Source: Polytrichum commune
Lineage: Eukaryota; Streptophyta; Polytrichopsida; Polytrichales; Polytrichaceae
Assembly (NCBI GenBank): GCA_950295325.1
Contig: OX485806.1
Coordinates: 50,651,169 to 50,715,168 of the forward strand
Length of the DNA: 64,000 nt
Direction of reading: 5' to 3'
Shown: in pieces, positions 4,849 to 52,362 of the stretch
Numbering within the stretch: position 1 is the first letter of the stretch
Layout: every line of letters starts with the position of its first letter
The notes under the pieces: generated by a model
Told to the model about the DNA's origin: nothing
The model's input: the letters and a program-made list of their open reading frames with translations, nothing else
The model's database searches: none
Program-made: the position numbers and the translations under genes

Positions 4849-5025
4849 TACACGTGTATGTTATTATGAGAATTAAGGGAGTGGACGTAGTCACATGATT
4901 GCATATAGTAATATTGTTTATGAGTATTATGTGAGTAGATGTAGTCATGTACAGTCACATGATTGCACGTAGTGATATTGTGATTCACTCCGGCAAATTT
5001 CTGACTGGCTCGAGTCATTGTGTAG

Positions 5026-5923: not shown

Positions 5924-6214
5924 GTGAGTTCATATTTTAGTGGAAGAACCCTAAATGCACCACATCTCCTAGAACAACACTCCAATCCATGCGGACTACA
6001 ACAAAATGCATCTTTTATGACCAAAATTTATGATTGCACTCAGTCATATTTTGGGATTTATGACTGAGTACAGTCACAAAATGTAGTTGTAAAATATGTA
6101 TTTTGTTGTAGTTATCACGACACACTACGACTACTGTTGTATGCAATTATGACTGCCCTTAGTGATTTCAGCGAGTCACAAGTAATGATATGTTGGGTTG
6201 TATCCAAAATGCAG
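5924..6214 (+). other. Intron of the CACTA transposase gene carrying TGACT motifs
   Basis: The interval is bounded by GTGAGT and AATGCAG. It contains 'tatgattgcactcagtcat', 'tatgactgagtacagtcac' and 'tatgactgccctt', matching the subterminal motifs of the element. Confidence 0.55.
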
Positions 6215-7086
6215 GAAACACAAGGATGACATGTTACGGCGGGAATATGAGCGGCACGAATACAGGCGCAAGAAGCGGAAGGCGCGGGTAATGTACCCAG
6301 CGGAGTTGCGCGACAAGGATTTTTACATTTGGTTTCCAAAAGCAGTGATGCACGCCATAGAAGAAGGGACTGATGAGGTAGAAGAAGACGTTAGGGCCTT
6401 GATGTTACCTCCATTAGATGCAGCGAAGTCACATGTATGCGTTTGGAAACCACATCCGTGTCCGCAGCGCGCATGCGCAATTGACAACGATGGACTATGG
6501 GGTGGCCGTAACATTTCGACAATTATGTCGCTTGGGCCTGAAGGACACAAATCCAAAGGCAGCAGAGTTGGAGTACGTGGGTTGGGTGGAGGAAATCCTA
6601 TCCGTAGACTATGGATTCTTTGAGGTGGTGGTCCTCTATTGCAATTGGGTCGTTGCAAACATTAAGGGAGATGGGGCCACGATGAAGCGCGATGACTATG
6701 GTTTCACCATTGTAAACTTTGACAGATTGATTCCTTACTCAGTACAATCATTTGCCTTTCCTCTCCACATCGAACAAATTTTTTTTGCACCCGACGTAGC
6801 GAAGTGTGGATGGGAAGTTGTTTTGCGCAAGAAACCGAGAGGGGTTCGGGTATTCTCCAAACAACAAAGACCGGATGAAGTACAATGCATAGCACTGGGT
6901 AGGACTTCTGATTTTCCCGGATTACAAGTGACGGGCTTATATGACAATATCGTACTGAAGACACCCATATTGGGCGATGCAGTGGAAGTGGGGCCAGGAG
7001 TGGTTGCTAAGGCATTAGAATGTCTAGAGGGACCGGACGACGCATCGGTAGATGCCTTAGAGTATTGCGACTCGGACGGTGATTGA
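6215..7086 (+). pseudogene. CACTA element DUF4216-like C-terminal exon
   Basis: After an acceptor at 6213-6214 the frame reads a basic segment (RREYERHEYRRKKRKARVMYP). A shift near 6485-6505 leads to DYGVAVTFRQLCRLG, KDTNPKAAELEYVGWVEEI, VDYGFFEVVVLYCNWV and IPYSVQSFAFPLHIEQIFFA. This is the order seen in DUF4216 (ArS.D.NP....YyG...eI.eldY....v.LFkC.W). The end (EYCDSDGD, stop 7084-7086) is acidic as is common. The function of DUF4216 is not established. Confidence 0.75.
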
Positions 7087-7727
7087 CTTCCCGTCCGAGC
7101 AAGAAGTTGTATAAATGAAACTTAGGTGGGTATATATTTAAGTTCAATTGTATACATGTTCAATTAGTCTCTTGGCAATAGTAAATTTCAAATTTCCTCC
7201 CCAATTTCCCCCTTATACTCCCTAAAACATCAATCAATTAATTATTCAATAAATAAACATGGGCCATTCCCAATTTTCATTGTCATTCATACTATAACAC
7301 ACAAAGTACTTAATTTTGACCAAAATCCGTCATTATTAAATAAATACTCCAAACCATAATACTAGATAATGAGTCATGGGGCAAAAGCACAAGAGGCCCG
7401 TCTAGGGCAACCTGAATTTTCAAGGGTTGCCCAAAAAAAGGGAAAAAAGGTCCCCGTCAGAATGTGACTGAAGAATATGACTCACAGAAAAATGTGACTG
7501 CCACATATGACTGGGCGTCCAGAAGACACGTTCCCCGTCGTTCCCCATAACGGCACCCGTCGTTCCCATACGCCGTATACAGTACATTTACCGAATATGA
7601 CTGCGAGTCATATTTTTGAATTTTGTACCCCCCAAAGGTCGAGGCCTGGCAAAATGTGACTGCCTGTAGTCACCAGTCATCCCCAATCATATTTCCCTAG
7701 TCACAAAATACCCAATCTGTTGTAGTG
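7087..7727 (+). repeat. 3' subterminal repeat region and terminus of the CACTA element
   Basis: The region contains at least six TATGACT/ATGTGACTG words on both strands between 7455 and 7700 and ends with TGTTGTAGTG. In En/Spm elements such motifs bind the TNPA-like protein. Confidence 0.7.
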
Positions 7728-8401: not shown

Positions 8402-11379
8402 TGTGAGCCCTAAAAATGTGCCCACATCTTAATTAACCCTAACACAACTATTGGGAAGTGAAAAGGCAAATTAAAGAGGTTAACCTCACCCTTAAAGAGG
8501 AGAGAAAAAAAGATGAATCAAAATAAAAAGGTGAGTGCGATTGCCATGTGTGACAAAGGGGGGGTGGTCTAAGAAGGGAGAAGGCCAAGGAAGAAGGCCA
8601 AAACCCGTTTTTTCCTTCGGGCCGCCCGAAGATGCCGGGCATCGCGGAAAATAAAAAGGAGTTGGAGGGGTCTGAGAAGGGGGAGAGGAGAGGCTCATTT
8701 TTTTGGGTGGGGGGTGTGCAAGAAAGGAGAGAGGGACATTGGGGTTAGGAGGCGGAAGCGCTGCCCCAACTCAAAATGAGTGTGCATAGGGTAGTCAATG
8801 CTAAGAGAGTGGGATCAATTAGAAAGAAAGGGATGTGGGCGTTCAAACGATGGGGAATTGACAAGCTAAGGGCGACCGAATGATTAGCTAGGGACATCAA
8901 AGTCAAGATAGGAAGAGAGGGAGGGAGCTCTCGTGTCCCTGGTGCGTCGCAATAGTGGAATCGACACACGCACAAACATTCGGCCAAGATCTCAAGTCTC
9001 GGTTCTGTGGTCATCGCTGCCTGTGGAAGCAGCAGAGAGGAGGAGAAAGAAAAGAGGAGCTGAAGAATAATAATGAAGGATTCAATGAGAGAGCGGCATG
9101 CGGCCCAACTATGAGAGCATGGCAAGAAGAAGATCGGTGATGAGTGATGAATCTGATTTCCTTTCCAAGCATGACCAACAACGAGGAAAATGAGCATTTA
9201 TGGTGATAGGATCTTTTGTAAATGGTTCCATGGCCATTCCACTCACTAACCTCCCTTCAAGTTTTGAGTTTTAACATACACAAGTCCATGTAAACACAGT
9301 AACAACAATAAGAATGTGTCGATTTCTCAGTCTTCACATCGTGCAACTTGTGCGGATTTGAGTAGGTTGAGCTGGTAGGCTGGTGGATTGCATTGCGTCG
9401 CAATTGCACAGTCTGGTCTAAGTGAAGAGGGAAGTGGCTAAGTGCAGGTTGCTTCCATGTTCATCCCGCAATGGCATGTATTCACCGACTACAGTTTTCA
9501 CGAAGGTGGAAATATGTTTGACTAGATGTGTTTGAGGTAGGTGTAGATTGCCAGTGTTGGAATTTTGTCGAGGATCCTCAGGAGGGACACGAAGGAAGGA
9601 GCAGGGGAAGGTTGGTAAGGTAGTGATCCACTTGCTTTGTTAATGGGAGCGCCCATCCTGATCTACTCCAGCAGCTCGTAGGTAACATGATCTTATTGAT
9701 CGCGAAGCACGCGTAGTGGGTCAGGAGCAAGTAGGTCAAAGAGATTGGATATAGCTAGTTGGGAGATTTTTCTTGAGTATGGCAAGTTTCTTTACGTTTT
9801 TTATAAGGGTGCGAGAGGTTCGGGGAGGGTGGCACAACAGTGCATTTTAGATCGTCAAGATTTTGGTTCACTGAGGGAGTGTGTCTATGCAAATCAGTAG
9901 TCTTCTGCTCTCTGTTTCGTAGTCTCTCGTGTCCCAAGGGTCGTAGATAGGGTCCTTTGCTCTTCTCCTTGTGTTGTAAGGTAAGGCAAGCTAAGCTCAT
10001 TGAAGGTCAAGATAGGTTGCAGAAACAACTCGCTCCTTGAGTGGGTTCAGATGGAGTTTAGGAAACAAGAGTTGGGGGAAGTGTTCGGAGGATTAAGAAG
10101 TATTCTTTCTTGCATTGTTTGGTAGCATTTTGTGGAAGTTCATGAGTGCGTTTCTACAACCTGAATGGTCCAGGTTTTGTACTTTGTGCGGAAGGTAAGT
10201 CTAGCTTAACCCTATTGTTGATAGTGGGTGCAGAAGTACAGACATTTTGTCTGTCTTTGTGCATCCTCCTTCGAGACTATTTCTGGTGGGATACAGAGTG
10301 GGTGTTTCGCAGATGTGGGAGTTGGGCTATTTTTGGCCACTAACAGGATTGGGATCTCATCGTTAACCTCAGGTGGAGTTCATAAGTAGGTTTTTCACTC
10401 TTGAGAGACTGTCGAAGTGTATCCTTAACGAACTGGGAGTTGTAGGTGGTTGCAGTCAGCATAGCCTTGAGTAACTCTCCCTGGGTTTGAGTATGTTTTG
10501 TCCTTGTGTTATCGGTGTTGCTTCGCCTCCTCAAAAACACGTGGGATTTTAGAAGTTGGTATAACTTGGGATTGCAGAGTGAGTCCCCTTTGAATTTCAC
10601 TCGACCCTGTTGCAATGGCGGTGCGGTGAGAGATTAAGTGCACCTCAATCAAGGCAACAGGTGGATTGTGGGAGTGAGGGCCAAGCGGGAACAAAGGAAC
10701 ATTGGGTTCAGCGCTTCAGGTGGGTTATCTGCAATGTGGGATCGGACTGGAGGTGTACAGGAGGACTGTGAGCAAGAAGAGATGTTCATTGCCGAGGATC
10801 ATTCCAACTAAAGGAGCAGCATACCATGGTTTGTTCCCATGGAACCCCCATGCATCGAGCTGCAGGGGGCATCACACCGAGTGGCAATGCAGTTGCCATA
10901 ATACGGGGTGTCACTAGTAATGGACCATCAGATAATGGTTCTCCGGTGAATGTTAGATGAGTAGCAGCTATAATTGAATTAATTCTAAAGAGGGCTTAAG
11001 CTAGTAGTGGATTAGGATGCAATTGAGCGGATGCTCGTAAGGGATGAAATTCTAGAACGGGAGGCGAGAGGTAGGACTTGAGCCGGATTCCCCGCTTGTG
11101 GAGGAATGGGGCAATTAGGCTAGAATGTGGAAGGAATTCAATTGATTAGTAGGTAATTGATATTGTATGGGGATGGAGCATTTGTAAATGCTCATATGGT
11201 TAATAAAAAAGGTGTTATACACACCACTTCTCTTACCCTCAAATGGAACAAGCACTAGAAGGAATCGTGTCCAAATCAACCCTCCTCTGCGGTGATGGTA
11301 GGGTCTGTGTCCACTGCCATTCTGACTGTAAACCCGTTGTCTGACTACCGCCGCGACTGCAGTTTGGGTATATGCCAGC

Positions 11380-11640
11380 AAAAGTTGGGTGTAACTTGGT
11401 TTACTTGGGTGACGGTTGCCATGTCAACCCGTTCGGGTGACCGCCACCGTTTTGGTAGCCTTTGGGTGGCGGTTTTTGGGTGTCGGGTTTGGGTTTTGGG
11501 CATAGGGTTGCAAGCGGGTTGGTGTTCATGGGTTGCACAATGCACTACCGAGGGTGGCCATCATATGTCGGTGGCTTGGCACCCATGTTGGGTGGCTTGA
11601 CACCCATCTTGGGTGTCATTGGCGCCCCCCGGGGCACAAT
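11380..11640 (+). repeat. Left subterminal GGGTG-rich repeats of the Pack-CACTA
   Basis: Short words such as TTGGGTGAC, CGGGTGACC, TGGGTGGCGG, TTGGGTGTC and TTGGGTGGCTTGACACCCA recur through this stretch. They mirror the CACCC-rich array near the right end. Confidence 0.6.
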
Positions 11641-11774
11641 TATTTTGATCATTTCCTCTCTTTCCCTTTGATGGGTTTGTACTCTCCCAGGGTGTCTGCT
11701 ACCCATCATAACCCGATTTTCCTAGATGAACGGGTTTCTGCACAGATAGGAAATATTGTTCCATACGAAACCCT

Positions 11775-12830
11775 AGGGTGCCTACACAACCGGCACACAC
11801 ACATAGCTCAACTCAAATTGCAGCAGAGACCCCAACATTCGCTCTCGGATGCCTTTTGTCAACTTCTCTCCTGTAGCTGCAAAATTGTAGTGCTGAAGCA
11901 CATTCGTTCCAAGGAAGAAAAACGCCAGTGCAACTAGAATTCCTGCAAACTTTCCAACCAGGTGCCATAAATGGGCCGTGGGTTGGTTTGCATAGTACTC
12001 TATTGTTATCGATGCGATAACATAAGCGCATAATGGGTTGGTAAATCCAAAACCAATAGCTCAAAGAAGCCCCAACAGTCTTTCTTTCCATTTTGGTTTG
12101 TTTAACCATAACATGCGTGTGAATGAAGGCTTTTGATTTGAGTAATATCTTCCGGGGTGGCGATATTTTTAAGGCCAAAGTGTTGTGCATTTTGGACTTC
12201 CAAGCTATCCCAACTCCTTCGGGAGTTGGACTTCTTTGAATGACCGAGTCCATAGCTGGCTCTTACAACTTCTCCGTGCTCTAGAGGGCCCTCAGGTTCA
12301 ATGTCAGCAACCATTACTCCCGCTTCTTCGTCCTGTAAATAAACACCAAATATATTCACACACAACGTCAGTCACAGAGGCTCAAAATGTAGTAGGGAGA
12401 CAATAGAATATCTGAACTTGGCCAATTCTAGTTATTACCATCACACACATGTCAGGAGAATGCTCATAAGATTTAGTCGTTCAGGGAAATGTACCTGTCT
12501 ACGAGTTTGCATGTTAATCATTGCATAGTATACTCCCATCTCGCCTATATTCAATAAATCCTCGTGACTTCCCATCTTGACTACCTTGCCATATTGTAAC
12601 ACAACAATTATGTCAGCATTACGAATTGTCGAGAGTCTGTGGGCGACTACTATAGTAGTTCGTCCAAGTGCAGCCTTCTCAAGAACTTGTTGAACTACTC
12701 GGTCAGACTCTGTATCGAGAGCACTGGTTGCCTCGTCGAGGAGAAGTATAGGAGGACTTTTTATGATGGTTCAGGCAATTGCAATACGCTATTTTTGGCC
12801 TCCTGACATCTGCACTCCCTTTTCACCCAC
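11775..12830 (-). pseudogene. ABCB-type (MDR/P-glycoprotein) transporter fragment: end of NBD1, linker and start of TMD2
   Basis: On the minus strand the exon at 12830-12495 reads VGEKGVQMSGGQK (ABC signature), [20 protein letters not shown] (Walker B and D-loop) and [20 protein letters not shown] (H-loop), ending at a donor CAG|GTACAT. The next exon (12332 downward, acceptor TTTACAG) starts DEEAGVMVADIEPEGPLE, shifts frame near 12137, then reads PSFTRMLWLNKPKWKERLLG, FTNPLCAYVIASITIEYYAN, VLQHYNFAATGEKLTKGIRE. These match the linker and first TM helices of the second half of plant ABCB proteins. Three nonsense codons are visible: TAG for Gln after GGQK, TGA for Arg in RIAIAR, and TGA after GLL. 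The Walker A half and the rest are absent. It is a captured gene fragment. Confidence 0.85.
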
Positions 12831-13031
12831 CTGCATCGTTGCATAATTTACACAGTATTCAGGAATACAATAATATATTTGGACATCTCGGTAAGTGTTA
12901 CAATCCTTTATGTCTGACTCATATGTGTACGGCGAACACCACTCTGTAACAAATGTACAACTAAGGGAAAACATGCATGATCATAATTCAAAATGTCACA
13001 TGTAACACCCAAGCTGGATGGTGATGCTTAC

Positions 13032-13117
13032 TGACTGGTAACAACCTCATTGAGCATGAGGTAAGCAAAAAAGACATTAGAGACAAACTGCACTGATCCC
13101 AAAACTGCCAATAATGA
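13032..13117 (-). pseudogene. NIPA-like (DUF803) magnesium transporter, captured exon B
   Basis: The 86-base open exon is bounded by acceptor TTTGCAG and donor GTCA|GTAAGC. It reads SLLAVLGSVQFVSNVFFAYL then MLNEVVTS. This is the conserved helix pair that follows 'SYAAQ' in NIPA8/NIPA9-type plant proteins. It has no stop and joins exon A after Gln-Gly phase 0. The family mediates Mg2+ transport in membranes; this piece alone cannot. Confidence 0.75.
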
Positions 13118-13322
13118 CTGCAAACGATGAGTAATGATGATTAGTCACATGAGGTAGAACTGATCGATTTAATCATGAATGATTTCCAAATAAGTAGAAA
13201 AGGAATAATAAGATCTAATAGTTCATGTGATGCCTTATCAATTCCACACTATGGGCAGCATCTACAACTCTAGAAGTTAGTTAGTGTCCAAAACATTTAG
13301 TCAATGAAGAGCCAAGGTTCAC

Positions 13323-13384
13323 CTGAGCAGCATAGCTGAATGAAATAAAGTTTAAGAAATTTCCAAGTGTAAATATCGCAACAC
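13323..13384 (-). pseudogene. NIPA-like (DUF803) magnesium transporter, captured exon A
   Basis: The 62-base exon lies between acceptor ATGGTAG and donor CTCAG|GTGAAC and reads VAIFTLGNFLNFISFSYAAQ. It joins in phase with exon B (13117-13032) across a 205-base intron to give the continuous NIPA-like block ...SYAAQ-SLLAVLGSVQFVSN. Both exons and their splice sites are undamaged, in contrast to the neighbouring ABCB piece. Confidence 0.75.
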
Positions 13385-13858
13385 CTACCATAACAAAAAT
13401 ACAGCTGAAGAAGTCAATACTCTAGCTTTACATATTAGAGAATATTTAATAGAGATTCAGGAGGTTGGACTACATAAAACAAAAAAACATTTTAATGTTT
13501 AATGAAAACTACAATTTGCACAGGTGCCCCAGGTTCCAGTTTATTATTGATAATACAAGGACATCGAGTCACATTAGATAATGCAAGGTTAGAGAGTCAT
13601 CTCTTTCCGTTTGCCCGAACTGGATCTTTGGCATGTGGTCAATGGTTGCCTGCACAATCACACCCACCTGTTCTCCTCCAAACCCTAAATTTGAATACCT
13701 AATATTTCCCTGTGCAACTTGTTTCGATGCCGTTTTTTGGAGGACCAGCAAGTTGGCAACCCCCATTCTAGTATTTTGTGTGAGGTGCAGCTGATGCTTG
13801 CATTGTTGTGAGTGTGTCAAATTAAAATTCTTTTTTTTTGTGAGGAAATTGTGGGTAT

Positions 13859-14569
13859 GTGGAGTACAAATCCAAGCAACCTCCTCAAACCCTTGTTTGT
13901 TGTCCACCTTTCGTGATGTTTGGCTCCGAGGGTGACCCGATAGAGCGTGAGATTGTGGTTGTGGGCCGTCAACTTGCATTTGTGAACCACAAATTGCAGA
14001 GCCAATTGGAAACCATGAAAGATCTCATCCATGAGTACGAGGTTTCTTTGGCGGCGGAGCGAATGCTGGACTGCTTGGGTTTCCCATCTCCATCAGGGTC
14101 CTCTGGGATCGTCCCCATTGAAATGGCTCTCCTTGCTGTACCAATGCTAATTCCTTCCCCCCATCCTGCAACCATTGTTGTTCCAGATAGGAATATGGTA
14201 GACCTCCGTGCGGCTATCCTCTCCTTGGTTCAGTATGACATGTTTTCCTGGAGAGAGGACAAATTTTTCGCCAGGCTGGGGAAAAAACCCAGACATGCCT
14301 ACACCCGAACCAACCCCCCTTGCAGTCATATAGGTTTCCAGCATGAGCATGTGGCAGTACTGGGAGGGAGGGAGGTGGACATGCCCTATGGGTTGTGGGA
14401 GGACTTGCATCGACAAGTCGTGCGCACGGACAATGCGCAATTCCTAAAGACCAACCACCCAATGCTTCATGTCTTCTACAAATTTATAGAGGCACAACTT
14501 TGTGCTGTCACCAGATGTCGCCCGGAAATGCATCGCAAAACCCCGGCAGTTCCCAAGTTTTTTGGATAG
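13859..14569 (+). CDS. Unrecognised 236-codon ORF within the Pack-CACTA
   Basis: This is an uninterrupted frame ending at 14569 (TAG). A likely start is the internal methionine of MFGSEGDPIEREIVVVGRQL at about 13916. The N-terminal third is predicted helical and charged (NHKLQSQLETMKDLIHEYE), the middle is Pro/Ile-rich, and the C-terminal part has scattered Cys/His (CSHIGFQHEHVAVLGG, CAVTRCRPEMHRK). No family was recognised. Its length without stops in ~47% GC sequence makes it stand out, but it may be a retroelement gag-like remnant or a captured exon run. Confidence 0.35.
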   Translation: MEYKSKQPPQTLVCCPPFVMFGSEGDPIEREIVVVGRQLAFVNHKLQSQLETMKDLIHEYEVSLAAERMLDCLGFPSPSGSSGIVPIEMALLAVPMLIPSPHPATIVVPDRNMVDLRAAILSLVQYDMFSWREDKFFARLGKKPRHAYTRTNPPCSHIGFQHEHVAVLGGREVDMPYGLWEDLHRQVVRTDNAQFLKTNHPMLHVFYKFIEAQLCAVTRCRPEMHRKTPAVPKFFG

Positions 14570-14901
14570 TGCATGCAATGGGGATTGCAATTATTAGGGT
14601 TTCCTTGTATTTTTGTGTTCGTCCAGTGCGTGCCACATTCCAACTTCATTAAAGGAAGAGTTGCACATATCTTGGCTACATTTGTGGTGGTATTGGATCA
14701 GATATATTTGTGTAACGTTTAAGATTGTTGCACAAGAGCTTAGTTCTTGCCATTGACAATTGCTACAATATCCACCCCCAATCCTCATGGAGGGAGCGTG
14801 TGGATGATAAAGTTATTTTTGTTTCCAGTCCCGCACGTCACAGCATGGGCCCTTTCATAACTTCCAGATGTGTGTGGAGATTAATGTCTTCAGCAATGTT
14901 T

Positions 14902-15007
14902 TGCTTCCTTTCTGCAATTGGGTTGTTCCATGTTTGGACTGTTAACCCTTTGACGTGCTGCTTCCTTTCTGCAATTGGGGTTTTCCATGTTTGGACTGTT
15001 AACCTTT
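14902..15007 (+). repeat. Two tandem copies of a 56 bp unit
   Basis: TGCTTCCTTTCTGCAATTGG...CCATGTTTGGACTGTTAACC occurs at 14902 and again at 14958 with few differences. Confidence 0.75.
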
Positions 15008-15369
15008 CCATGTAACTTTGCAAGTAGGTTTTGGTCAAACAATTTGGGTTGCAAGATGCATGTCTACATACATATTTGGTCAACACTCATCTGATATGCT
15101 TCCAATTGCAACAGGGTGTTTAGGTTGAAGATGGTTTTTCTGCTACAAATCGCCGCGCTGCTGTTGATAGTATAGGCTCAATTGGGAAGTGATGTCTATG
15201 CTGCCCATTTGGTAAGTGTCTTGGTGATTCTAGAGATTGTTATACTATGATGTAAATTTTCCAAAACATTGTCTAGGTGTTTGAGTGTAGTTGCTGAGCA
15301 ATATTGAAACAAAATAGATTGTTTTGGAATTAACCAATCCAAATCAACCCGACATTGATAGAACAATTG

Positions 15370-15621
15370 AAATGGTGCATTAGTATTGGTGGATGAAACT
15401 CCTTTAAATTCGATTGTTGTGAAACAGGCCGAAATGCAGACTTTGCAACAGGATGGATCCCTTCACTTGCACACTCGGAGTCTCAAATATGGCAAGGTGA
15501 TCGACTTCTTCTCAGCTGGGGTTTAGGGACTTTGAATTCGTAGGATTCATCCTTCTGGAACATGTCCTTCATTTGCCAATCCACTACTGCTTTGAGCTCT
15601 ACTTAAACTGATAAAAAGTAA
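15370..15621 (+). repeat. Direct duplication, copy 1, containing an RRP4 exon
   Basis: About 250 bp are shared with 16234-16486, from AAATGGTGCATTAGTATTG to CTTAAACTGATAAAAAG. The shared stretch includes the exosome exon plus intron flanks on both sides, so the duplication happened at DNA level after capture or in the donor. Confidence 0.85.
15428..15496 (+). pseudogene. Exosome subunit RRP4 exon, copy 1
   Basis: The 69-base exon lies between GAAACAG and AAG|GTGATC and reads AEMQTLQQDGSLHLHTRSLK then YGK. RRP4, the RNA-binding cap subunit of the nuclear/cytoplasmic exosome, has AEV...Q.DGSLHLQARSQKYGK at this place in its S1/KH region. The frame is open. The downstream TAG in the readthrough is intronic. 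Confidence 0.75.
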
Positions 15622-15846
15622 GAGTAAACCTCACAGAAATTCCAGCTTTGGGACTCTGTTCATAGGTATTGCGGTTGCTCTTGGCATTAGTTTAAATGCA
15701 TGGACGACAAGCAGGTGCAAGCTTCGGTCCAGCAATAGACATCCATTGTAGGTTTTTAGGTATTGCTTTACCCTGCCCAGTTCATGGGTAGCCCAAGATG
15801 TCACAAATGTGGCTTCCATATCATGCGTCCACATTATTGAGTCGAT

Positions 15847-15994
15847 CTAAAATAACACTCTGCAATTTTAATGTGTGTGTGTTGAGTTTGTGCAATGCGA
15901 CCAAGTGATTATCTGCCATTGAATTGTTGAATAGGTTACTTTTGAATTTTGATTCGTGTGTCTCTGCCCTAACCTTTTGTCTGGTATATTGCAA
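15847..15994 (+). repeat. Direct repeat copy 1 (second duplicated block)
   Basis: CTAAAATA-CACT-TGCAATTTTAATGT...CTGGTATATTGCA is shared, with ~10% differences, with 19319-19465. It reads as an intron tail. Confidence 0.75.
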
Positions 15995-16233
15995 TTGTAA
16001 ATGTTGCTGCAGAGAAGATGCACAACTGCAGATGAGCAGAATATGTGAGACTTGTATGTCGAGAATGACCTTATCAGTGTGAGTTGCAAGAGAACCTGAC
16101 TATCTGTGTAGGGTGGTGGTGGTTATAGTTCAGAAAGCAGTTATTGTCAACTGGATTGATAAGAAATGTGTAAAGCAACATGTATACTTTGTTTTCGAAC
16201 TAATATATCTAGTCCATTTACAGAGAGCTGTTA

Positions 16234-16486
16234 AAATGGTGCATTAGTATTGAAGGATGAAATTGCTTTAAATTCCACTGTTGTGAAACAGGCCGAAGTG
16301 CAGACTTTGCAACAGGATGGATCCCTTCACTTGCACACTCGGAGTCTCAAATATGGCAAGGTGATCGACTTCTTCTCAGCTGGGGTTCAGGGATTTCGAA
16401 TTTGTAGGATTCATCCTTCTAGAACATGTCCTTCATTTGCCAATCCACTGCTGCTTTTGGTTCTACTTAAACTGATAAAAAGCAAG
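16234..16486 (+). repeat. Direct duplication, copy 2, containing an RRP4 exon
   Basis: This is the second copy of the ~250 bp block at 15370-15621. The offset is 864 bp. Confidence 0.85.
16292..16360 (+). pseudogene. Exosome subunit RRP4 exon, copy 2
   Basis: The exon reads AEVQTLQQDGSLHLHTRSLK then YGK with the same acceptor and donor as copy 1. It has Val at residue 3, as in known RRP4 proteins, where copy 1 has Met, so copy 2 looks closer to the ancestral exon. Confidence 0.75.
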
Positions 16487-17559
16487 AAAATACACACTGT
16501 AAGGGTGGTGGCAATCATGAAGGCAGAAACAAATTGACAGCACTACAAGCTCCTCCAGGAGTATTCCAGGAATTAGATGTTGTGTAGTAAATAAGGTAGA
16601 CATGACTAATTTGGTTACTTATCTTAATGAAGCACCTATATTGGAGTGGGGGGTGGTTAGATGCATGCTCAAAACTTACTGAACACGGAAAGTGTTGTAT
16701 GCAAAACAACTAGCTCCCGACCCAAAGTCCCGTTAAATGAATGACAGCTCTATTATTGTGCAAGTTTGTAGTATCCCTTAACAATTTCTTCATTAGCCAG
16801 TAGCATTTTCACTTGGGTTTTTTGCTGAATTGGGGACCAGATGGGAGAAATAACACTGCTTTGAAAGTGGGTGTTTTGCTCTGCTTCAAATTTTTAGCTT
16901 TAGCTTCTACACATTTCTGGTTGTGCTGCATTGTTCTGCTATACTTTGAAGGGTCCTTCCTCTGGTTTGCATTCTCGCACGGAGCCGGTATTGCGACTGT
17001 TGCTTGATCACTCTCTTCTTCTTGGTGTGCCCAAAAGAAGTACAGGTATGGAATACCTAGTATACTTTAACATGTTTTCTATGACACTTTTTCAATTACC
17101 TGCACACAAATGGAAGAGGGTTGTTTGAGCATCAAGTTTTCCAACCACTACATGTAATTAAGGAGGTTGCCAATTGAATGAATTGGTCAGTTTTACTATA
17201 GCTTGCGGCGAAAGCCAATACTTTTAGTGGGAGTTGCAGCATGGTGTAGGTCAAATAATTTTCCTCACACAAGTGTTTTGTTTTATTTTTGTAAAGTGGT
17301 TGTCGTAAAATAACATCAATGAACCTATTTTTTCAAAGGGAAATAACTTATTTATCTGAGTTATATAATAATGCAATGGGAATTTTGGTTGGGAGTTGGC
17401 TATCATGCGTGCAACATTTTCCATGTTTGGTAAGTATTCAGAGCATGCTTGGAGTTGGTGTGGAGGTTTGAACAAAGAACATGTAGTATGAGTTCATTGA
17501 GGGTCAAAATCATTTTGGCATGCCAAGAGGTTCTAAAATGAGTTTGGCACTTGATGAAC

Positions 17560-18011
17560 GAATATAGAAAGTTTTTGGTTCAAATCTCCACAGCAACTCA
17601 GTAGCTGAGGATATTAGTCATAAGACTGAAACAGTTCCTGGTGTTGATAAATCAAGTCAAGATGGTGCTCATGAAGCAGCACCCCAGCTTGGGAGTGCAC
17701 CTTTTCAAGTGGAATGGCAGTTGCACCTATCAGCCTATCTGTCCTTGCTAAATGTTGTTCTTGAGCACCGGAAAGGAAGCCGAGCGAGCGGTGAGTTCTG
17801 TGTTATGGGAAGTGTGATTGGCTTCTTGGTCAGTAGATGGTCAGACTACAAGCCACTGTCCTTCGGGTGTTTCTTGTGGAATGTGAAGCAATCACTTAGT
17901 GGAAAAGGAAGTAATCGAGCAATGACAACCAATATGTCAAATAGTGTACTAGAATGCCTTAGTGTGGGTATATGTGAGTCCCACACATCCGGTGAAATTT
18001 GTCACACGTAG
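17560..18011 (+). other. Exon-like segments of unknown origin in the Pack-CACTA
   Basis: An open stretch reads HSNSVAEDISHKTETVPGVD then KSSQDGAHEAAPQLGSAPFQ, with codon-like composition. It runs into an ORF starting at 17709. No family was recognised; it could be a disordered part of a captured gene. Confidence 0.25.
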
Positions 18012-19318
18012 TGGTACTATATGTCCAGCATGAAGCATTGCGTGTTTGACTGTGTTAAAAGTCTTATTGTTTGTCTGTGTTAAAGCCACCTGTCAGGTTT
18101 AGTGTAAAGTGGATTGCAAGAGTGGAGCATATGCATTGAGCTTGTTGTGCATCTACGTAGTTACAATTTAAAGTTCCTATTGCTGATTTGTATCTCTTGT
18201 GGTATGTTTACAGTCTTGTGCCCTTCTATCATGCTCAAAATTGCAATGTTTCGTTGTTTTCTTCCAGAGTTTTTTGTCATATGTTCAAAAGTAATTCAGT
18301 TGAAGTAGACGAGTTCCAAGACTGCCAACACCAGGTTGCCGTAAACTATCATTTTTGTGGGGACGACGAGGGATACGACGTACTTTATAATACACACCAA
18401 GGCTACTTCTTTAAACACATCAAAAGCAGGAAATAATGCAGCTGGACAAATAGGAAATTGGGAGTAGTGCAACAACATCTTCATCACAAATGGTCCTCCT
18501 CTATTGTTGGTTCAACAGTTGGCGGCTAGGCCCTGTGGAGGTAAGTATTGGCCGTCTCGGTTACCACGTCCGGTCCAAAGCATCAAATAATGGTGTCAAT
18601 CTCGTGGAAATGTGCGTTGTGGTTGTCTGTTGCAGTTTTAATTTGGGGTTGAAAACTGTTGGAAGATTGTGTGTGTGGTTCTGACTCGACACCCCAAAAA
18701 CCACTCTAGGACTCTTAGTGCCTCCCTTAAATAAAAACCCTTGAATGTTGCTCAAGCCCCAAAATATTTCCATCCAAGTGATTCTCAGTGATGTCACAGA
18801 AATTTGGAGCGACCCCCGCATAAAATCTCCCCAACGAGGGACTGGTCATATTCGACAGACACAGTACACAGTACTCTAGTAGTTCCCAGGAGTCAGCAAT
18901 CCATAGCCTTCTGACCCGTCTGATCTCCGAATCCAATCCACACTTGAACGCCCTGCCTGACACACTTCATTCGTGGAATGGTCTTTTCTCCTACATGACT
19001 GACACCAGGGGTCATATAATTGCATCCAGCCTAAGGTGCAAGGTATGTATGTGGTGATAAGTCGTAAACTTTGTGAAGCATTCCCTGTTTTTAACGAGAA
19101 GACATTTTCTCTTACTTCCTCTACAATAACCTATTACACTTCTTTGTATGCTTGAAGAGGTGAGGAGTAAATTGAGGGTCAGTAGTCACCTGATTCTCCT
19201 CGTCTTTTTGTGGGATGTCATGTCAGGTTGCCAATAAGAGATGGAAAGTGGAGGTTAACTCCAAAAAAAATGCAGAGTTGATGTTATCTGCTGTGATACT
19301 ACCTGGTGGTATTCAGGT

Positions 19319-19465
19319 CTAAAATAGCACTTTGCAATTTTAATGTTTGTGTGTTGAATCTGTGCAATGAGACCAAGTTATTGTCTGCCATAAAATTGTT
19401 GAATAGGTTATTTTTGAGTTTTGACGCCTGTGTCTCTGCTCTCACCTTGTGTCTGGTATATTGCA
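19319..19465 (+). repeat. Direct repeat copy 2 (second duplicated block)
   Basis: This is the partner of 15847-15994. It ends in an acceptor-like TATTGCAG that leads into an exon-like stretch. Confidence 0.75.
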
Positions 19466-19466
19466 G

Positions 19467-19631
19467 AGGGAGAGGTTGTGAAGATTTCCAAATTTTGAGG
19501 TTCTGGAATGAAGGAGACACAAGATTACATCCCCCTTTCAAGTCAACAACTTTTGCAGCGGTTTCTGCTAGGATTAGACGAGGATACCCTTTCCTCAGCT
19601 TCATCTCTGCAAGAAGTCTCCCCTGCTGAAG
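19467..19631 (+). other. Exon-like segment of an unidentified captured gene
   Basis: The stretch is bounded by TATTGCAG and GCTGAAG|GTATGTG. After one stop the frame reads KETQDYIPLSSQQLLQRFLL then GLDEDTLSSASSLQEV, which looks like real protein. The gene was not recognised. Confidence 0.35.
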
Positions 19632-20794
19632 GTATGTGAATCATTGCCACAGTTTCAAATCCTACAAACACTTTATAAATGGAATATGCTCCTAGTAGCT
19701 TATTCAAGACAAAGATCTTTCACGTTGAAAATTCAGAAGACATTGTCTGTGACCAAATAGGGACACTGCTATGTGTGAGCAAAGTGTGTGGATTCAGTTC
19801 ACCCAAATCAAAAACCCTTCTAAAACTTGAGAGTAGAAAAAGGGCACGTCCTTCAATTGGACAGCCATTTGGGCATTTTTTGCTGGAATCCATATTTTTC
19901 GCTCTAGGAGGATCCCTGTAGGATATCCGATAACCTGAATGGCCACCACCCGAAATTTGTAGCTCTTGCTACAATGGCATTTCTGACTGTATACAGTTCA
20001 AAATTATACTTCTTGAGCTGCCTGAAATGAGTTTCTTAAGGTACCTCCTCATGATGGGATCCACCAATGTACAAAATTGTGAGCCTCTTCAAGGAAGCCG
20101 CCATAGTGTTCACATCAAATTGTGAGCCTCTTCAAGGAAGCCAAGTTGCAAGTGTTATCCATGAACTGAAAAGTGCATTTCTTATTCTGTGCACACCGAT
20201 GACTTGTTCTGTGTAAAGTTATTCTCTTATGTATACAGGAGGAGATTGTTGTTTTGAGAGTGAGATGCTACTGATGAGAGACATACATTGATTCCAGGAT
20301 CCAAGGTGAAAAGAGCCACGACTAGGACTTTCCCCAGAAAGTGCGACCCTTCTCTTGACACCAAAGCTGGAGCCATGAATTAGGTCACCCATGCCAAATG
20401 GGGCAATTGGAGTCACTGCAGAGATGGTTCCTCAAAGCACAGAAATTGTAAACACTGCAGCTTTTAATCTGAGGGACCCTAGAGCCACTTTTCAAATGCT
20501 CTCCAGTTCAAGGTAAAATTCCTAATTGTCAGAGATTTCGAATTATCTAGTCATTGCTTGAAAAACAGATGACATGAACTCTTCTGTGTCAACTTTGAAG
20601 CAGTTGGGTGTGTCACAGGTTTAGCTCCAGGGTTGAAGCTCTTGTTATTAAACATGAGATTGGCTACTTCTGTAATTGGTTGGGAATTGGTAAGTAGCGG
20701 TAGTGCTTATTATCTGCTCAGTAGATCTGGTTATTATTTGCATCTGAATGTGGTTCTCAATATTATTATTTGTTGACCTCCTTTGTTCTTGACA

Positions 20795-21105
20795 GATGTG
20801 ACTTCAGAACGAGAACACGATCCTACTGTTTCACAATATGAGATAGGCCCGTTGGCATTATGTGCCTTCTTACATTGATATGGCTCAATTGGAATTTCAC
20901 ATTAACTTTGTCATCTCTTGCAATCCCTGCGCCAGTGATCACACATCTGCCACTATCAGGAGAGCAGCAGGCAGCATTGAGTACAGTTGCTCTGGTGCAA
21001 ATATTGGACAATCAGAAGACAATAGCGCAAGCTGGAAGGGCAGATCTTCGAATTGCACTATTAGCTCGAATAGTTGCCGAGGTGATTGAGCATAAATTTT
21101 TCTGA
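20795..21105 (+). pseudogene. Possible symplekin-like (3'-end processing scaffold) fragment
   Basis: After an acceptor CTTGACAG a frame reads VTSEREHDPTVSQYEIGPLA. A shift leads to PAPVITHLPLSGEQQAALST, then LVQILDNQKTIAQAGRADLR and IALLARIVAEV. The pattern 'RI-sy--i..aG..dlR..LLARlVA' is found in plant symplekin/PTA1 proteins. The assignment is from memory of the pattern only and is tentative. Confidence 0.4.
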
Positions 21106-21609
21106 TGTTTTGGAGTTTGGGTCCAGTACTTTACACATTCTGAAGGTTTAATTCTTGGGCATTCCTATGGGCAAGTTCAAACTTTGACTTTCTATAAGAT
21201 CAAATGTGGTTGAAATTAGAGGATGTAGGATTGGCAGGGTTGTGGAACTTGTAGAATAACATTTGTGGACGTGCTCCTCTGTCACCGGGGATGTTGCATG
21301 TAGATTGTTTGTTTACTCCATATCATATGTGAACGACAAGCAGTGAATTTCACAACATTCTTGAGTAGCCTATGTAGTCTCCGGATGCAAATGGTCTACA
21401 CAACACTGATAATAGTTAATACAATCTAATGCATGATAATGGTTGGTTAGAAGAAGCTTAGATGTCACTAATACCTTGCACGAATTTGCCATTGAATGTT
21501 CGATCATGGAATTTGGATACGATGGGAAGAGTCATATTTGCATTTCAATATGTGCATTTTCTTTTTGAAGTAAACCACAAAATGACCGGCTAAAGACACA
21601 CGATTGTGT

Positions 21610-22560
21610 TGTTAAAACATCCACCCATCCACCGAGAATACGTGCCTAGCACTAACCCATCCACCGAGATTGTCCACCCAACAGTAACCCATCTACCGGG
21701 GATGCCAACCCAACCCCCACTCAACTCTAAACCATCCACCGAGGGCGCTCACCCAACACCCACCGGACACTAACCCATCGCCGAGGACGCCTACCCAACA
21801 CCCACCCAACACTAACCCATTGCCGAGGAGGCCTACCCAACACCCACCCACACTCACCCAACACTAACCCATCGCCGAGGAGGCCTACCCAACACCCACC
21901 CATCGCCGAGGACGCCACCCAACACCCACCCGACACCCACCCAACACTAACCCTTGAACACCCGAGCCCACCCGAGCCCACCCAACACCTAGCCACCCTC
22001 ACCCATTGAATGCCACCCACTAACGGGTAACAATGGCACCTATTTGGTCACTTGTCGACCGACGTGGCATGCTTGGATAGGACAATTAGAAGCGAAACCG
22101 GCAGTGGTGACCATGTGGGTGAGTATCTACCCGAATGCCACATCCATATGTACCCTATACCAGACTCGACACCCAACCCGGTTTATCCTGGTGCACCATG
22201 CCACCCAATATGTCCACCCTCGGCCGGTTAGTTCGGTGACCAATATGCTAAACCCATGAACGGGTAACTTGTCATACCCTCCATGTACTCTAATGCACAA
22301 CGTGTCAACACATGATAGGTGAATGGCATATGTGCACCCACAACGGTGGCCATCTTGGTATGTCCACTGATTCGGGTAGATGGTGCGCACCATAAAGCAC
22401 CCAATTCCGGCACATGTCACCAAGAGGGCACCGAACTAATGTCACCCAAAACCCACTCCACCCCACCCATTGTGGTAGAATGGGCAAAGGGTATGTGTCA
22501 CCCTTGGGATGGTGATCGTCACCCACAGAAGCCCCAAGGGGTTGAAAAGAGCATTATTGG
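21610..22560 (+). repeat. Right subterminal CACCC-rich minisatellite of the Pack-CACTA
   Basis: From 21610 to 22015 a degenerate unit of about 40 bp (ACCCATCGCCGAGGACGCC, TACCCAACACCCACCCAACA) is repeated roughly nine or ten times. Beyond it single GTCACCC words continue to ~22560. The polarity is opposite to the GGGTG words at the left end, as expected for CACTA subterminal repeats. Confidence 0.75.
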
Positions 22561-22737
22561 CTGCATCACCCGGCTTTTAACTAGGCCATCAAGACTGCAC
22601 CGACAGACTACTACCCACCCATACCGGTGCCCTTTTACAGTGAAATTCCTGCTACCCTGCAAGGTTGATTTGGACATGATTCCTTCTAGTAAAGGTCACA
22701 CATATGAATGATGATCTTGGTGTGTGAAGAAGGATCC

Positions 22738-24750: not shown

Positions 24751-26826
24751 CTAACGACAAAAAACGGCACTTCTCTGCTTCACCCCGGAGTAGAGATAAG
24801 TGTAGGAATGGAAACTGGTGGCCAAAGTGCTCATTGCGCTCATTGCCTCCCCCTTGCCAAGCATTCCATGAAGTACATAATCATCAATTCTGCACTTCAG
24901 GTCATCAAACATCACCTCTGGATCGTGGTGCATCGCCCGTAGCGTGCAGGATAAACTTTGCCCTGGGAGGACCTTCGATATCCGGAAGCCGTCTCCGCCC
25001 TTCGATGGCACTACGTGCACCACATGAGGATTGCCAAATAAGTTGTGCATACTTCCGAGGACCTCTTGGTAAGCGCCGCCTAGAAACATACCCATGTAGT
25101 AAGGTTTTCCTTCCTCCAGCTCGTGAGCACACAAGTGCTTCGCGGCCTCCCCGTACTTGCCGTTGCCAATGAATGCTGCGACCTTGCCGTCGCTGTCGCA
25201 GGTAAGATCTGAGAGGATTACCCGCTCTTTTGGCTCCGTTTCAAGACGGTGGAGGGGGATAATGGGGAAAAGTTGTCCAATCGCCCAGCTGTCCGGCATG
25301 GACTTGAAGATGGAGAGGTTGATATGGTAGGTCGAGGAGTAGTCGCCCTTGCAGCTCTCCCCTGAGACCGGTCGCTCACCGCAACTCTTTTCGATGAAAC
25401 AGGTGCTCATGCTTTGGTTTTCTTTGTGATCTGCACAGGTGGAGACGATCTCTAGCATCTCGTCGATGGCAGCGCGAACCTCCAAGCGGAGTAAACCAGC
25501 CTTAAAGAGATGGCTGCATTGATATTTCAACTGCCGCGCATACGTCAGAGCCCCTTCATAACTGCCACTGCCGACGCACCTCACGAGCTCGTCCTGGAGG
25601 TGCACCAGCGCTTCCGGAAGCCCCTCGATTTTCAGGGGGATGCCGCGGTCATGGCCGGGGATGCCACTCCCGCTCTTGTGAGCAGACAGCACATCAAAAA
25701 CCAGCACGGAGTGATGTGACACCAGCGCCCGCCCACTCTCACAGCACAAGACGGGATGCTTCACGTGCTTCTGGCTGGTTGCATTCTTGATTGCTTCTAC
25801 AACCGTCTCAGCATACTCCTCCATATTGTACCCAATAGACATCTCCGACTGCGATGAGTGCGTGCCGTCGTAGTCCACGCCCAGACCACCGCCAATGTCG
25901 ATCACATTCATATTTGCTCCCATAAGCGCCAACTCGCAGAAGATGTGCGCGGCCTCGCTCACTCCCTCACGCACCAGCCCAAGAGAGGGAATCTGGGAGC
26001 CTATGTGAAAGTGCAGGAGCTGCAAGCTATCCAACATATTAGCCCTCCGCAACCTCCGGACCACCTGCACAATCTCGCATGTTGATAAACCGAATTTTCC
26101 TTTCTCGCCAGAGGTTTCCCCCCAATGTCCCGCGTGCTTAGTGCTCAGCTTTGCCCTCACGCCGACCACCGGCTGGATTTGCAGCCTCTTGCTCAACCTT
26201 AAAACTGTCTCTAGTTCCTCCACTTGCTCGAGAACGATCACCGTCTTTAGCCCCATGCGCCGCCCAACCAGCGCAATCTCCACGTACTCCGCGTCCTTGT
26301 AGCCATTGCAAATCACAAAAGCCTCGGCGCTGGACTTGCACATTGCGGCCATAACGAGCAGGAGCTCAGGCTTGCTGCCTGCCTCGAGACCGAAATTCAT
26401 GTGGCGCCCATGGGAGACGATCTCCTCCACCAGGTACTTGTCCGGGTTGCACTTCACAGGGAACACCCCCTGAAACGTCCCGGTGTAGCTCTGCCGCTTG
26501 ATGCCTACATCGAAAGCCGATTGCAAAGTTTCCATCCGGTTCTTCAGGATATCGGGAAACCTGATGATCAGAGGCATACTGATATGTTCCCTGCCTGTGA
26601 CCACCTTATCAATAGCCTCCATGAGGTCGATCTCATCGTTGGGTTCAGTCCGAGTGCCATGAGGGCACACCGCAATGTTGCCGCGCACGTTGATCTTGAA
26701 ATACGGTGCGCCCCATCCCTCCACTCTGTAGAGCTGGGACGATTTCTGTACAGACCAGGGCTTCTTTGCAGCCTCAGAGTAGAAAGATTGTCCGTCAAAC
26801 AGCATAGGGTCTGCTAGCGGGGCCAT
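24751..26826 (-). CDS. ADC: Arginine decarboxylase, plant biosynthetic type (EC 4.1.1.19)
   Basis: An uninterrupted 691-codon frame encodes a complete plant ADC, a PLP enzyme of fold III that converts arginine to agmatine, the first step of the ADC route to putrescine. Visible landmarks are GWGAPYFKINVRGNIAVCPHG at the N-terminus, the PLP-lysine motif VFPVKCNPDKYLVEEIV (K125), HFHIGSQIPS (His274), the phosphate-binding IGGGLGVDYDGT (312-321), CESGRALVSHHSVLVFD (363-378), and DLTCDSDGK with the predicted catalytic Cys543 donated across the dimer. The C-terminus has YMGMFLGGAYQEVLGSMHNLFGNPHVV. The length is typical (about 630-720) and an intronless CDS is usual for plant ADC. The start at 26826 has a good context (GAAATGG) and aligns with family N-termini. 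There is no obvious transit peptide. GC content is clearly higher than in the flanks. It is the only intact host gene here. Confidence 0.95.
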   Translation of the reverse strand: MAPLADPMLFDGQSFYSEAAKKPWSVQKSSQLYRVEGWGAPYFKINVRGNIAVCPHGTRTEPNDEIDLMEAIDKVVTGREHISMPLIIRFPDILKNRMETLQSAFDVGIKRQSYTGTFQGVFPVKCNPDKYLVEEIVSHGRHMNFGLEAGSKPELLLVMAAMCKSSAEAFVICNGYKDAEYVEIALVGRRMGLKTVIVLEQVEELETVLRLSKRLQIQPVVGVRAKLSTKHAGHWGETSGEKGKFGLSTCEIVQVVRRLRRANMLDSLQLLHFHIGSQIPSLGLVREGVSEAAHIFCELALMGANMNVIDIGGGLGVDYDGTHSSQSEMSIGYNMEEYAETVVEAIKNATSQKHVKHPVLCCESGRALVSHHSVLVFDVLSAHKSGSGIPGHDRGIPLKIEGLPEALVHLQDELVRCVGSGSYEGALTYARQLKYQCSHLFKAGLLRLEVRAAIDEMLEIVSTCADHKENQSMSTCFIEKSCGERPVSGESCKGDYSSTYHINLSIFKSMPDSWAIGQLFPIIPLHRLETEPKERVILSDLTCDSDGKVAAFIGNGKYGEAAKHLCAHELEEGKPYYMGMFLGGAYQEVLGSMHNLFGNPHVVHVVPSKGGDGFRISKVLPGQSLSCTLRAMHHDPEVMFDDLKCRIDDYVLHGMLGKGEAMSAMSTLATSFHSYTYLYSGVKQRSAVFCR

Positions 26827-27180
26827 TTCCTTCTCCTCGCAGATGGATACAATATACGGTGCAACACCCTCCTGGCTAGCAGCCGAGGCCGGAGCCTCGG
26901 CTCGAGCGCTACTGAATCAATTTTCTAAAGGTTGAATGGAACCCAATGTTAGGTGAAGAACGTCGAGATCAATCTCTGAAATGGTTGAGGTCGCCAGCAG
27001 GGCTGTTTGGCAACGCAAGAGATTGTTCAAAGCAGATGTGTAGACCGCACAAACCTTGATTTTCACCAACTCCTGAGGGCACAGGCAGGACGCTAGAGCT
27101 AATTTGTCTCCTTTCGCTAGTCGAAATAAACTTAACGTCTCAAGCTAGAGGCCGGCTTGCTTCGGTTGTTCTAGAATCAG
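26827..27180 (-). promoter_or_regulatory. Probable 5' leader of ADC: no upstream ATG, GC-rich hairpin
   Basis: Reading the minus strand, no ATG occurs in about 350 bases before the start codon, which supports the chosen start and argues against a uORF in this stretch. A perfect 9 bp inverted repeat, AGCCGAGGC-cgga-GCCTCGGCT at 26881-26902, could fold in the mRNA about 55 nt before the start. The transcription start and any leader intron cannot be seen. Confidence 0.4.
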
Positions 27181-52170: not shown

Positions 52171-52362
52171 TATTGGAAGGTAGTGTTAGGTTGCATCGGT
52201 GACATTGTCCCATATGGGTTGTCACGGCTGGTCCTAACCTACACATATAAATAAAGAAATAAGGGGAGGAGCTCATCACTCTCTCCATTGTATGCAATCC
52301 TTGTGTGTTGTGTTCTACCTTTCTACGTTGATGTCTTTGCTTTCTCCTCTCACATCCCAATA
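52171..52362 (+). repeat. Copia 5' LTR
   Basis: The 192 bp run from TATTGGAAGGTAGTG to ATCCCAATA. A TATAAATAA at ~52244 may serve as the promoter's TATA box. Confidence 0.95.

Follow-up and report, generated by a model that had tools for sequence, protein, structure and literature searches.

A probable Pack-CACTA transposon carrying fragments of seven or more host genes in the moss Polytrichum commune

How plant DNA transposons pick up host genes is disputed, and two explanations stand against each other, fusion of neighbouring insertions and repair-based copying. We addressed the question whether positions 11253–22691 of a 64,000-nucleotide stretch of Polytrichum commune DNA (the window) constitute such a gene-carrying element, as a first-pass annotation made from the letters alone had proposed, and by which route its cargo could have been acquired.

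Terminal structure and insertion site

The segment at 11253–22691 is a CACTA-type DNA transposon of 11.4 kb. Its left end, CACTAGAAGGAATCGTGTCC, begins at 11253 and its right end stops at 22691; the two form an inverted repeat of 28 nt with 96% complementarity, flanked by the trinucleotide AAG at 11250–11252 and 22692–22694, which bears out the terminal repeats and duplication described in the first-pass annotation. The left end reads CACTAG, the start of most family ends among the matches listed, and the right end TACTAG, one base off CACTA, the final base of the element being A and not G. The left terminal inverted repeat (CACTAGAAGGAATC..., 11253–11281, plus strand) is a 29-base motif with 127 genome matches at up to 3 mismatches (66 forward and 61 reverse), while the reversed control gave 0. 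Within the window, a 20-base end motif was found at two places only, which are both ends of the element (up to 3 mismatches; 0 expected).

The left end and its subterminal region occupy 11253–11804 (plus strand), and the first 300 bases match at least 40 places, this element included, at 76–100% identity. The right subterminal region (21623–22690, minus strand) contains degenerate 42-bp tandem repeats and the terminal inverted repeat, with at least 43 matches to the right 300 bases; inverted motifs are common to both ends. At C4:54.462M, on the chromosome that carries the element, a related unoccupied site aligns with the joined flanks at 92% over 398 columns and contains a single AAG, its likeness to the right flank extending over about 96 bases only.

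CACTA-type inverted ends, a 3-bp target-site duplication and subterminal repeats are features of CACTA (En/Spm) elements; the lack of a transposase of its own, donors elsewhere in the genome and cargo that moves with the element are those of Pack-TYPE elements. Very probably, the segment is a real and well-resolved Pack-CACTA, i.e. a non-autonomous CACTA (En/Spm) element, in a moss, the latter as indicated by plastid psaA. Flowering plants are already known to harbour gene-carrying transposons of this sort.

Host gene fragments in the interior

The interior is composed of pieces from at least seven host loci on five chromosomes (C1, C2, C3, C4 and C7), so that contiguity in one normal host locus, tested as the alternative to capture, failed. 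Captured DNA makes up about 61% of the element, introns included, with identities to the donors of about 83–100%, and at the donor loci the coding frames run on past the captured part. The first-pass annotation had listed four of the named donors; it placed ABCB and NIPA-like pieces on the minus strand and those of RRP4 and possibly symplekin on the plus strand, with introns retained. Strands and introns agree with the donor alignments, which span introns, but the HEATR5-like, UTP20-like and DEG-type protease donors had been missed.

On the minus strand, an ABCB transporter fragment comprising exon, intron and exon (11805–12960) aligns at 95.3% over 1157 columns to C1:30.62M (L001:2576–3732), a different exon of which matches ABC_tran and ABC_membrane in Pfam. 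It is followed by a NIPA-like magnesium transporter fragment that is cut short (12957–13603, minus strand; 94.3% to C4:8.76M, L002:3115–3759), named from a Pfam NIPA match below the curated cut-off (E 8.6e-4). The adjoining segment at 13604–15009 (plus strand) derives from no named host gene and belongs to the family itself; it recurs at many places, several of which are family copies, and includes a 241-aa open frame (13844–14569, plus strand) with no Pfam match.

All further pieces lie on the plus strand. A fragment at 15010–15323 aligns at 89.1% to C3:54.61M (L003:1915–2234), which we take to be HEATR5/SWEETIE-like and for which no Pfam family was found. The first RRP4 piece (15360–15623) shows 90.9% identity to C7:24.00M (L004:2340–2077), whose exons match KH_6 and RRP4_S1 in Pfam; second and third pieces lie in 15746–16666 (L004:3139–3038, 92.2%; L004:2698–1913, 88.7%) and a fourth at 19056–19463 (87.0% to L004:2975–2573). 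Between the first two RRP4 pieces, an exon piece (15613–15735) aligns at 94.3% to C7:37.41M (L005:3779–3901), a presumably UTP20-like gene with no match in Pfam or PDB. Further fragments of this donor fill 16663–18306 in partly rearranged order (seven alignments to L005 at 83–94%). Their region contains a high-copy repeat (17353–17599), for which reason an alignment of 17418–17567 to the RRP4 locus (79%) was kept off the donor list. Two segments of unnamed origin at 18430–19059 align at 80% to C6:5.09M and at 91% and 89% to C4:20.76M and C5:39.26M. A DEG-type (trypsin-like) protease gene fragment (19509–19788) shows 91.9% identity to C2:11.26M (L009:2300–2021), where the adjoining exon matches Trypsin_2 in Pfam. 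Finally, five symplekin-like pieces at 19797–21264 keep the order of their donor at C4:41.35M (L010; 89–100%). This name follows from a donor exon that weakly matches a symplekin entry in the PDB (6v4x_J, E 0.02); in Pfam, no family but a sub-threshold HEAT repeat (E 0.061) was found for this donor.

Decay of the cargo

In the exon pieces examined, NIPA exons left out, changes are spread evenly over the three codon positions (40:37:48) and 7 stop codons occur. The even distribution indicates that the cargo is decaying. Substitutions in the 241-aa frame of the family relative to sister copies show little codon-position bias.

The explanation that selection maintains the cargo, either as a chimeric gene or as a source of regulatory RNA, has in its favour the five named donors from 15010 onward, which all lie in one orientation and would be compatible with a single spliced transcript, and the cargo of soybean Tgm-Express1 is reported to be spliced into chimeric transcripts (PMC1947982). 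The evenly changed codon positions, the stop codons and the loss of different pieces in sister copies argue against this explanation, and we regard it as improbable. Judged from its sequence, the cargo is most likely without protein function and would at most give rise to donor-like RNA or cassette exons.

Family copies, trimming and exchange

A search for sister copies yielded elements with the same ends and shared cargo joints. From the end orientation, we chose 17 end pairs by eye among the matches listed for the first 300 bases, the right 300 bases and the 29-base motif, those for the motif being part of the 127; unpaired ends and one wide pair (C4:45.62–45.69M, 74 kb) were left out. Matching 3-bp duplications were present in 15 of the 17 paired copies, the remaining two being C3:41.09M and C4:46.70M (49.4 kb). 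The sisters C4:47.26M and C2:38.33M have the same internal cargo joints at different insertion sites.

A coincidental match of terminal repeats and duplication, which the first-pass annotation had itself considered, was tested and failed in the face of the 127 end matches, the duplications in these pairs and the empty site. The same duplications and empty site, together with joints shared at independent loci, leave practically no room for an assembly artefact or a chance array of pseudogene pieces, in favour of which nothing was found.

Helitrons are not known to create a target duplication or to have terminal inverted repeats, both of which are present here. They have been reported to capture several gene fragments (PMC6431247), and a Helitron or another multi-gene capturer could by chance lie between CACTA ends. 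However, both termini are CACTA inverted repeats, the 3-bp duplication and the empty site end exactly there, and sisters share ends and cargo together. A Helitron as the unit inserted at this site is already refuted, and the broader explanation is extremely improbable.

Trimming is directly visible in the sisters, which have lost different pieces. One of them (L011) matches the NIPA donor over L002:654–3759, thus retaining 3.1 kb, and C2:38.33M retains 1.6 kb of the HEATR5-like donor (L003:1441–3030). As sisters share joints yet keep longer stretches, the captures were long and were trimmed later. A private late capture of ABCB by the copy in the window was also considered and rejected, because copy C4:20.77M carries ABCB with a different deletion and the piece shows 53 differences from its donor in 1157 columns; ancestral capture followed by loss or exchange fits these observations better.

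Relative to one sister, a middle block of 6.4 kb is 1.6% diverged compared with 5.7% outside the block (best log-likelihood gain 62, the highest value among 60 chunk permutations being 35.5). These two levels suggest exchange between copies. CpG decay was rejected as their cause, as the CpG share is alike inside (23/103) and outside (47/219).

Source of transposase

No Transposase_21 match was found inside 11253–22691 among 150 scored of 643 candidates, nor did the remnant region of a sister used as query match there; cargo and the family segment together explain most of the interior. That sister, C2:38.33M, keeps a transposase remnant (DUF4218), and similar sequence is present at loci whose left ends are 76% identical. 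When the 17 paired intervals were compared by eye with the 150 scored Transposase_21 matches (643 candidates), no match was seen inside them, and the search revealed no intact autonomous copy that shares these ends. A transposase-bearing relative at C6:40.04M has a left end 76% alike and contains a 67–69% relative of the segment 13604–15009, while the right end was not found there. For the tnp2 fragment located upstream in the window, a scan for CACT...AGTG ends, which misses the 11253–22691 element too, revealed no inverted-repeat pair with matching duplication.

Mode of capture

Joints between cargo pieces were collected with gaps below 40 bp. This gave 21 joints, among which the HEATR5-like/RRP4 joint stands twice (in this element and in C4:47.26M) and was tested once; 6 with gaps of at least 10 bp were dropped from the overlap test. 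Overlaps of at least 3 bp occurred in 8 of the 15 tight joints compared with 19% in simulated blunt joins (P ~0.003), while the mean overlap (0.87) was no higher than that across all 600 simulated joins (0.81). Different genes meet in 6 of the 15, and 4 of these have overlaps of at least 3 bp; comparison with sisters identified 2 of the 4 as later trims. Joint values can differ between copies, with one overlap of 4 in this element versus −5 in C4:47.26M and another of 3 versus −4 in C2:38.33M, and in such cases the value of this element was used. On re-examination, the overlap evidence mostly concerns trimming and less the capture itself.

This assessment led us to raise the chance given to capture by neighbour fusion, in which two family copies insert close to a gene, their inner ends disappear and the outer pair mobilises the DNA in between. 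The model is reportedly that of Catoni 2019, as relayed by Gisby and Catoni 2022 and by a review. In its favour, a family right end at C4:8743684 is situated about 15 kb from the NIPA donor segment, the NIPA and HEATR5-like captures are long and contiguous in sisters, and the model is described as supported for other Pack-TYPE elements (PMC8903248). On the other hand, no inner end motif is left in the element, and several different genes abut, overlapping by 1–11 bp or lying at most 10 bp apart, with no end remnant between them, although deletions could have erased such remnants. Around the other six donors, inspection of the matches listed, by eye, revealed no family end at a distance of 20 kb or less. 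We consider neighbour fusion a serious but rather doubtful route, and favour capture by break repair involving template switching or end joining, to which we give about an even chance.

We propose that the tnp2-type transposase region of an ancestral CACTA element was lost, and that this element acquired genomic segments several kilobases long, with their introns, from host genes on several chromosomes, presumably through such break repair. The element would have moved by cut-and-paste with transposase probably supplied in trans by relatives. Internal deletions would then have trimmed it, and exchange between copies would have reshuffled the cargo.

Relation to known gene-carrying elements and significance

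The Tpn1 family of Ipomoea is a CACTA family said to acquire host sequence, as the moss element does. A direct precedent is Tgm-Express1 of soybean, a CACTA element of 5.7 kb with five host gene fragments (PMC1947982). The first-pass annotation had called multi-gene capture at 11.4 kb notable; the capture stands, and its novelty is tempered by this precedent. Both elements belong to the CACTA superfamily and carry exons and introns of several unrelated host genes (PMC1947982), but the moss element is longer and has at least seven donors and sisters that display trimming and exchange. The Pack-CACTA and Pack-TYPE elements of Arabidopsis, rice and maize are similarly non-autonomous, with captured coding DNA and shared ends; compared with the examples given for them, which average 311 to 535 bp, the moss element is longer and its gene-to-gene joints show no visible fused insertions (PMC8903248). 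Gene-carrying CACTA elements of Chenopodium also hold captured gene fragments, one or two short ones per element in the examples described, whereas the interior of the moss element is mostly cargo (PMC8978399). Under moss and bryophyte terms, no bryophyte case was found in titles and abstract openings of one open-licence library among the matches listed.

Multi-gene Pack-CACTA elements are now placed in a moss. Nested relatives hold different states of the same cargo and the donors are in the same genome, which allows a direct reading of the joints and of the order in which the events took place. Tentatively, and with somewhat less than even confidence, we suggest that the family acts as an accumulator, in which copies reach about 48–50 kb through successive uptake of gene segments several kilobases long and of other transposons, swap cargo blocks and release trimmed derivatives of 8–20 kb. 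If this is true, the successive steps of capture, trimming and exchange could be followed inside one genome.

Ends and insertion site

The first-pass annotation had read 11253-22691 as a Pack-CACTA transposon, and its ends support that reading. They form a terminal inverted repeat of 28 nt with arms 96% complementary and 11,381 nt between them, and AAG adjoins the element on either side. CACTAG opens the left end, while the final G of the right end is replaced by A. In the window, a 20-base end motif occurs just at these two ends (≤3 mismatches; expected 0). Among the genome matches listed for the left 300-base flank, a single other one is full-length (C4:54462256-54462560 on chromosome C4, 90%) and the further ones are partial. 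Alignment of the two flanks, joined with one AAG, to this place gave 92% (365/398 columns) and crosses the joint, to the right of which likeness stops after about 96 of the 398 columns. The C4:54.462M place is thus a related unoccupied site, and it delimits the insertion as 11253-22691 together with the duplicated AAG. The sister copy at C4:47.26M has an empty site as well, its flank recurring with a single ATC at C1:77.36M, within another family member.

Other features of the window were recorded alongside. Pieces of another CACTA transposase lie at 2237-7121 (plus strand), with a Transposase_21 match containing one internal stop and a DUF4218 match under the cut-off; a strict scan detected no paired ends with duplication for it. 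Two kb right of the element, at 24751-26916 (minus strand), an uninterrupted 721-aa frame reads, we presume, like an arginine decarboxylase. The stretch 52171-58017, which we take from its one long frame (53718-57287) to be a Copia-like element, has 192-bp direct repeats at 52171 and 57827 (97%) and, between left repeat and frame, a 120-bp tandem array (52603-53660; 8.8 copies, 97% matches).

Origin of the captured gene pieces

Whole-genome searches with the element interior, followed by alignment to the places found, revealed seven named donors, which account for about 7.0 of the 11.4 kb (61%, as the sum of alignment intervals). On the minus strand are an ABCB piece (11805-12960; donor on C1, 95.3%) and a NIPA-like piece (12957-13603; donor on C4, 94.3%). 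A HEATR5-like piece on the plus strand (15010-15323; donor on C3, 89.1%) is accompanied by four pieces of RRP4 (donor on C7, 87-92%), eight of a UTP20-like gene (donor on C7, 83-94%), one of a DEG-type protease (19509-19788; donor on C2, 91.9%) and five of a symplekin-like gene (donor on C4, 89-100%). At the donor loci, coding frames extend past the captured part. The ABCB piece aligns to its donor across an intron in a single alignment with one gap, which indicates that it was copied from DNA.

Pfam supports the names ABCB (ABC domains), RRP4 (S1/KH) and protease (trypsin-like domain, presumably of DEG type). The NIPA name rests on a Pfam match under the curated cut-off (E 8.6e-4) and the symplekin name on a weak PDB match. 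The UTP20-like donor gave no Pfam or PDB match and the HEATR5-like donor no Pfam match; both names are our assumption. A short repeat at 17353-17599, which has dozens of matches across both strands of the genome, lies within a captured UTP20-like piece and also in the donor (C7:37.41M); it came along with the capture.

Family members in the genome

The host's plastid psaA gives its best scores, 1634 bits, with chains 6l35_A (also 7ksq) and 8htu_A, both of the moss Physcomitrium; 9lut_A follows at 1609 bits and all others reach at most 1569. The genome has seven large contigs of 42-78 Mb, suggestive of n = 7, a number common in Polytrichaceae. In its 408 Mb, a 29-base end motif gave 66 forward and 61 reverse matches (≤3 mismatches), and the reversed motif, used as a control, gave 0. 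The terminal 300 bases matched at least 40 (left) and 43 (right) places, this copy counted in both. Pairing convergent ends by eye yielded 17 copies, whose lengths range from about 7.6 to 49.8 kb, and 15 of them have agreeing 3-bp duplications: all seven fully read copies (AAG, ATC, ATG, AAC, TAT, GTG, TCT) and 8 of the remaining 10.

Two long copies carry agreeing 3-bp duplications, ATT at C4:31895122-31944909 (49.8 kb) and ACG at C4:42055437-42103527 (48.1 kb); those of a third long pair (C4:46.70M, 49.4 kb) disagree. In the 49.8-kb copy, family sequence occupies 5.4 kb at the start and 330 bases at the end. The interior holds C2-domain, NIF-phosphatase-like and DUF7869 frames and a transposase-like frame that we take to be of Harbinger type; three more long frames there matched nothing in Pfam. 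Self-alignment detected no long LTR pair in it, the longest direct repeat pair being 177 bp (85%).

The sister copies at C3:24.05M and C3:12.76M have tubulin-tyrosine-ligase-like fragments in common, and a Pfam run on the former alone matched TTL and SET_TTL. They make up a distinct lineage of the family that also carries gene pieces.

The element lacks a tnp2-type transposase. A DUF4218 remnant of one survives in its sister at C2:38.33M, and DNA resembling this remnant occurs at five places, all of which also have 76%-identical left ends. Such transposases are very abundant in the genome (643 first-look candidates; all 150 scored exceed the cut-off). By eye, no Transposase_21 match among the 150 scored of the 643 candidates lies in the 17 paired intervals. 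The segment 13604-15009, which contains an open frame of 241 aa, belongs to the element itself. It is found again at many genome places, including several family copies, and a transposase-bearing relative at C6:40.04M holds a 67% relative of it. Changes in this frame by codon position were 12:9:11 against C4:47.26M and 16:16:20 against C3:24.05M, with 2 stops in each comparison and little codon-position bias; they were 24:39:39 against the 49.8-kb copy and 54:51:88 against the C6:40.04M relative, where alone a third-position excess was seen.

Capture, trimming and exchange

CACTA capture of several genes is already known in soybean (PMC1947982), Pack-TYPE elements are widespread (PMC8903248), and Pack-CACTA capture is covered in a 2026 review (PMC13317346), whose main text lacks the words 'bryophyte', 'moss' and 'microhomology'. 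Titles and abstract openings listed in the literature surveyed revealed no moss or bryophyte case, nothing on microhomology in CACTA gene capture and no CACTA element of such length; one of the titles concerns a large soybean CACTA transposon.

Sister copies hold longer parts of the same genes. The NIPA gene is contiguous over 3.1 kb in C4:47.26M versus 647 bases here, and the HEATR5-like gene over 1.6 kb in C2:38.33M versus about 315 bases here and in C4:47.26M. Symplekin-like DNA deleted here survives in C4:47.26M, and ABCB is present in C4:20.77M with a deletion differing from ours. Several joints are common to three related copies, e.g. RRP4 to UTP20-like with an 11-base overlap. Long pieces of genomic DNA were thus taken up first and trimmed later, and copies multiplied along with their cargo. 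In the neighbour fusion model (PMC8903248), two family copies near a gene lose their inner ends and the outer ends move the intervening DNA; we consider this route to capture possible though less likely than a repair-based one, but an inner end motif was not seen in the element.

Twenty-one joints were gathered by rule, two of them being one joint listed twice, and 15 were tight (gap <10 bases). Overlaps of at least 3 bases were found at 8 of the 15 versus 19% of simulated blunt joins (P ~0.003); the mean overlap was no different (0.87 versus 0.81 over all 600 simulated joins), because some joints have short gaps. At some joints the overlap differs from copy to copy. By our own sorting, 4 of 6 tight between-gene joints (2 of these 4 being later trims by sister comparison) and 4 of 9 within-gene joints have at least 3 bases. 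Microhomology therefore favours trimming of the repair type, and for capture it is no more than suggestive.

Compared with C4:47.26M, this copy has 103 differences in the 6300 positions of the block 15434-21807 versus 219 in the 3832 of the remainder, a contrast attained by none of 60 chunk permutations; transition and CpG shares are similar inside and outside. The middle is thus younger than the outer parts, so that a block has passed between copies, in either direction.

Fate of the cargo

With the NIPA exons left out, the exon pieces compared differ from their donors by 40, 37 and 48 changes at codon positions 1, 2 and 3 (about 755 sites per position) and contain 7 stop codons; those of C4:47.26M differ by 25, 26 and 28. 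The cargo exons are in neutral decay. The five named donors rightward from 15010 share one orientation, so that spliced chimeric RNA from this moss element would be possible, of the sort shown for Tgm-Express1 of soybean.
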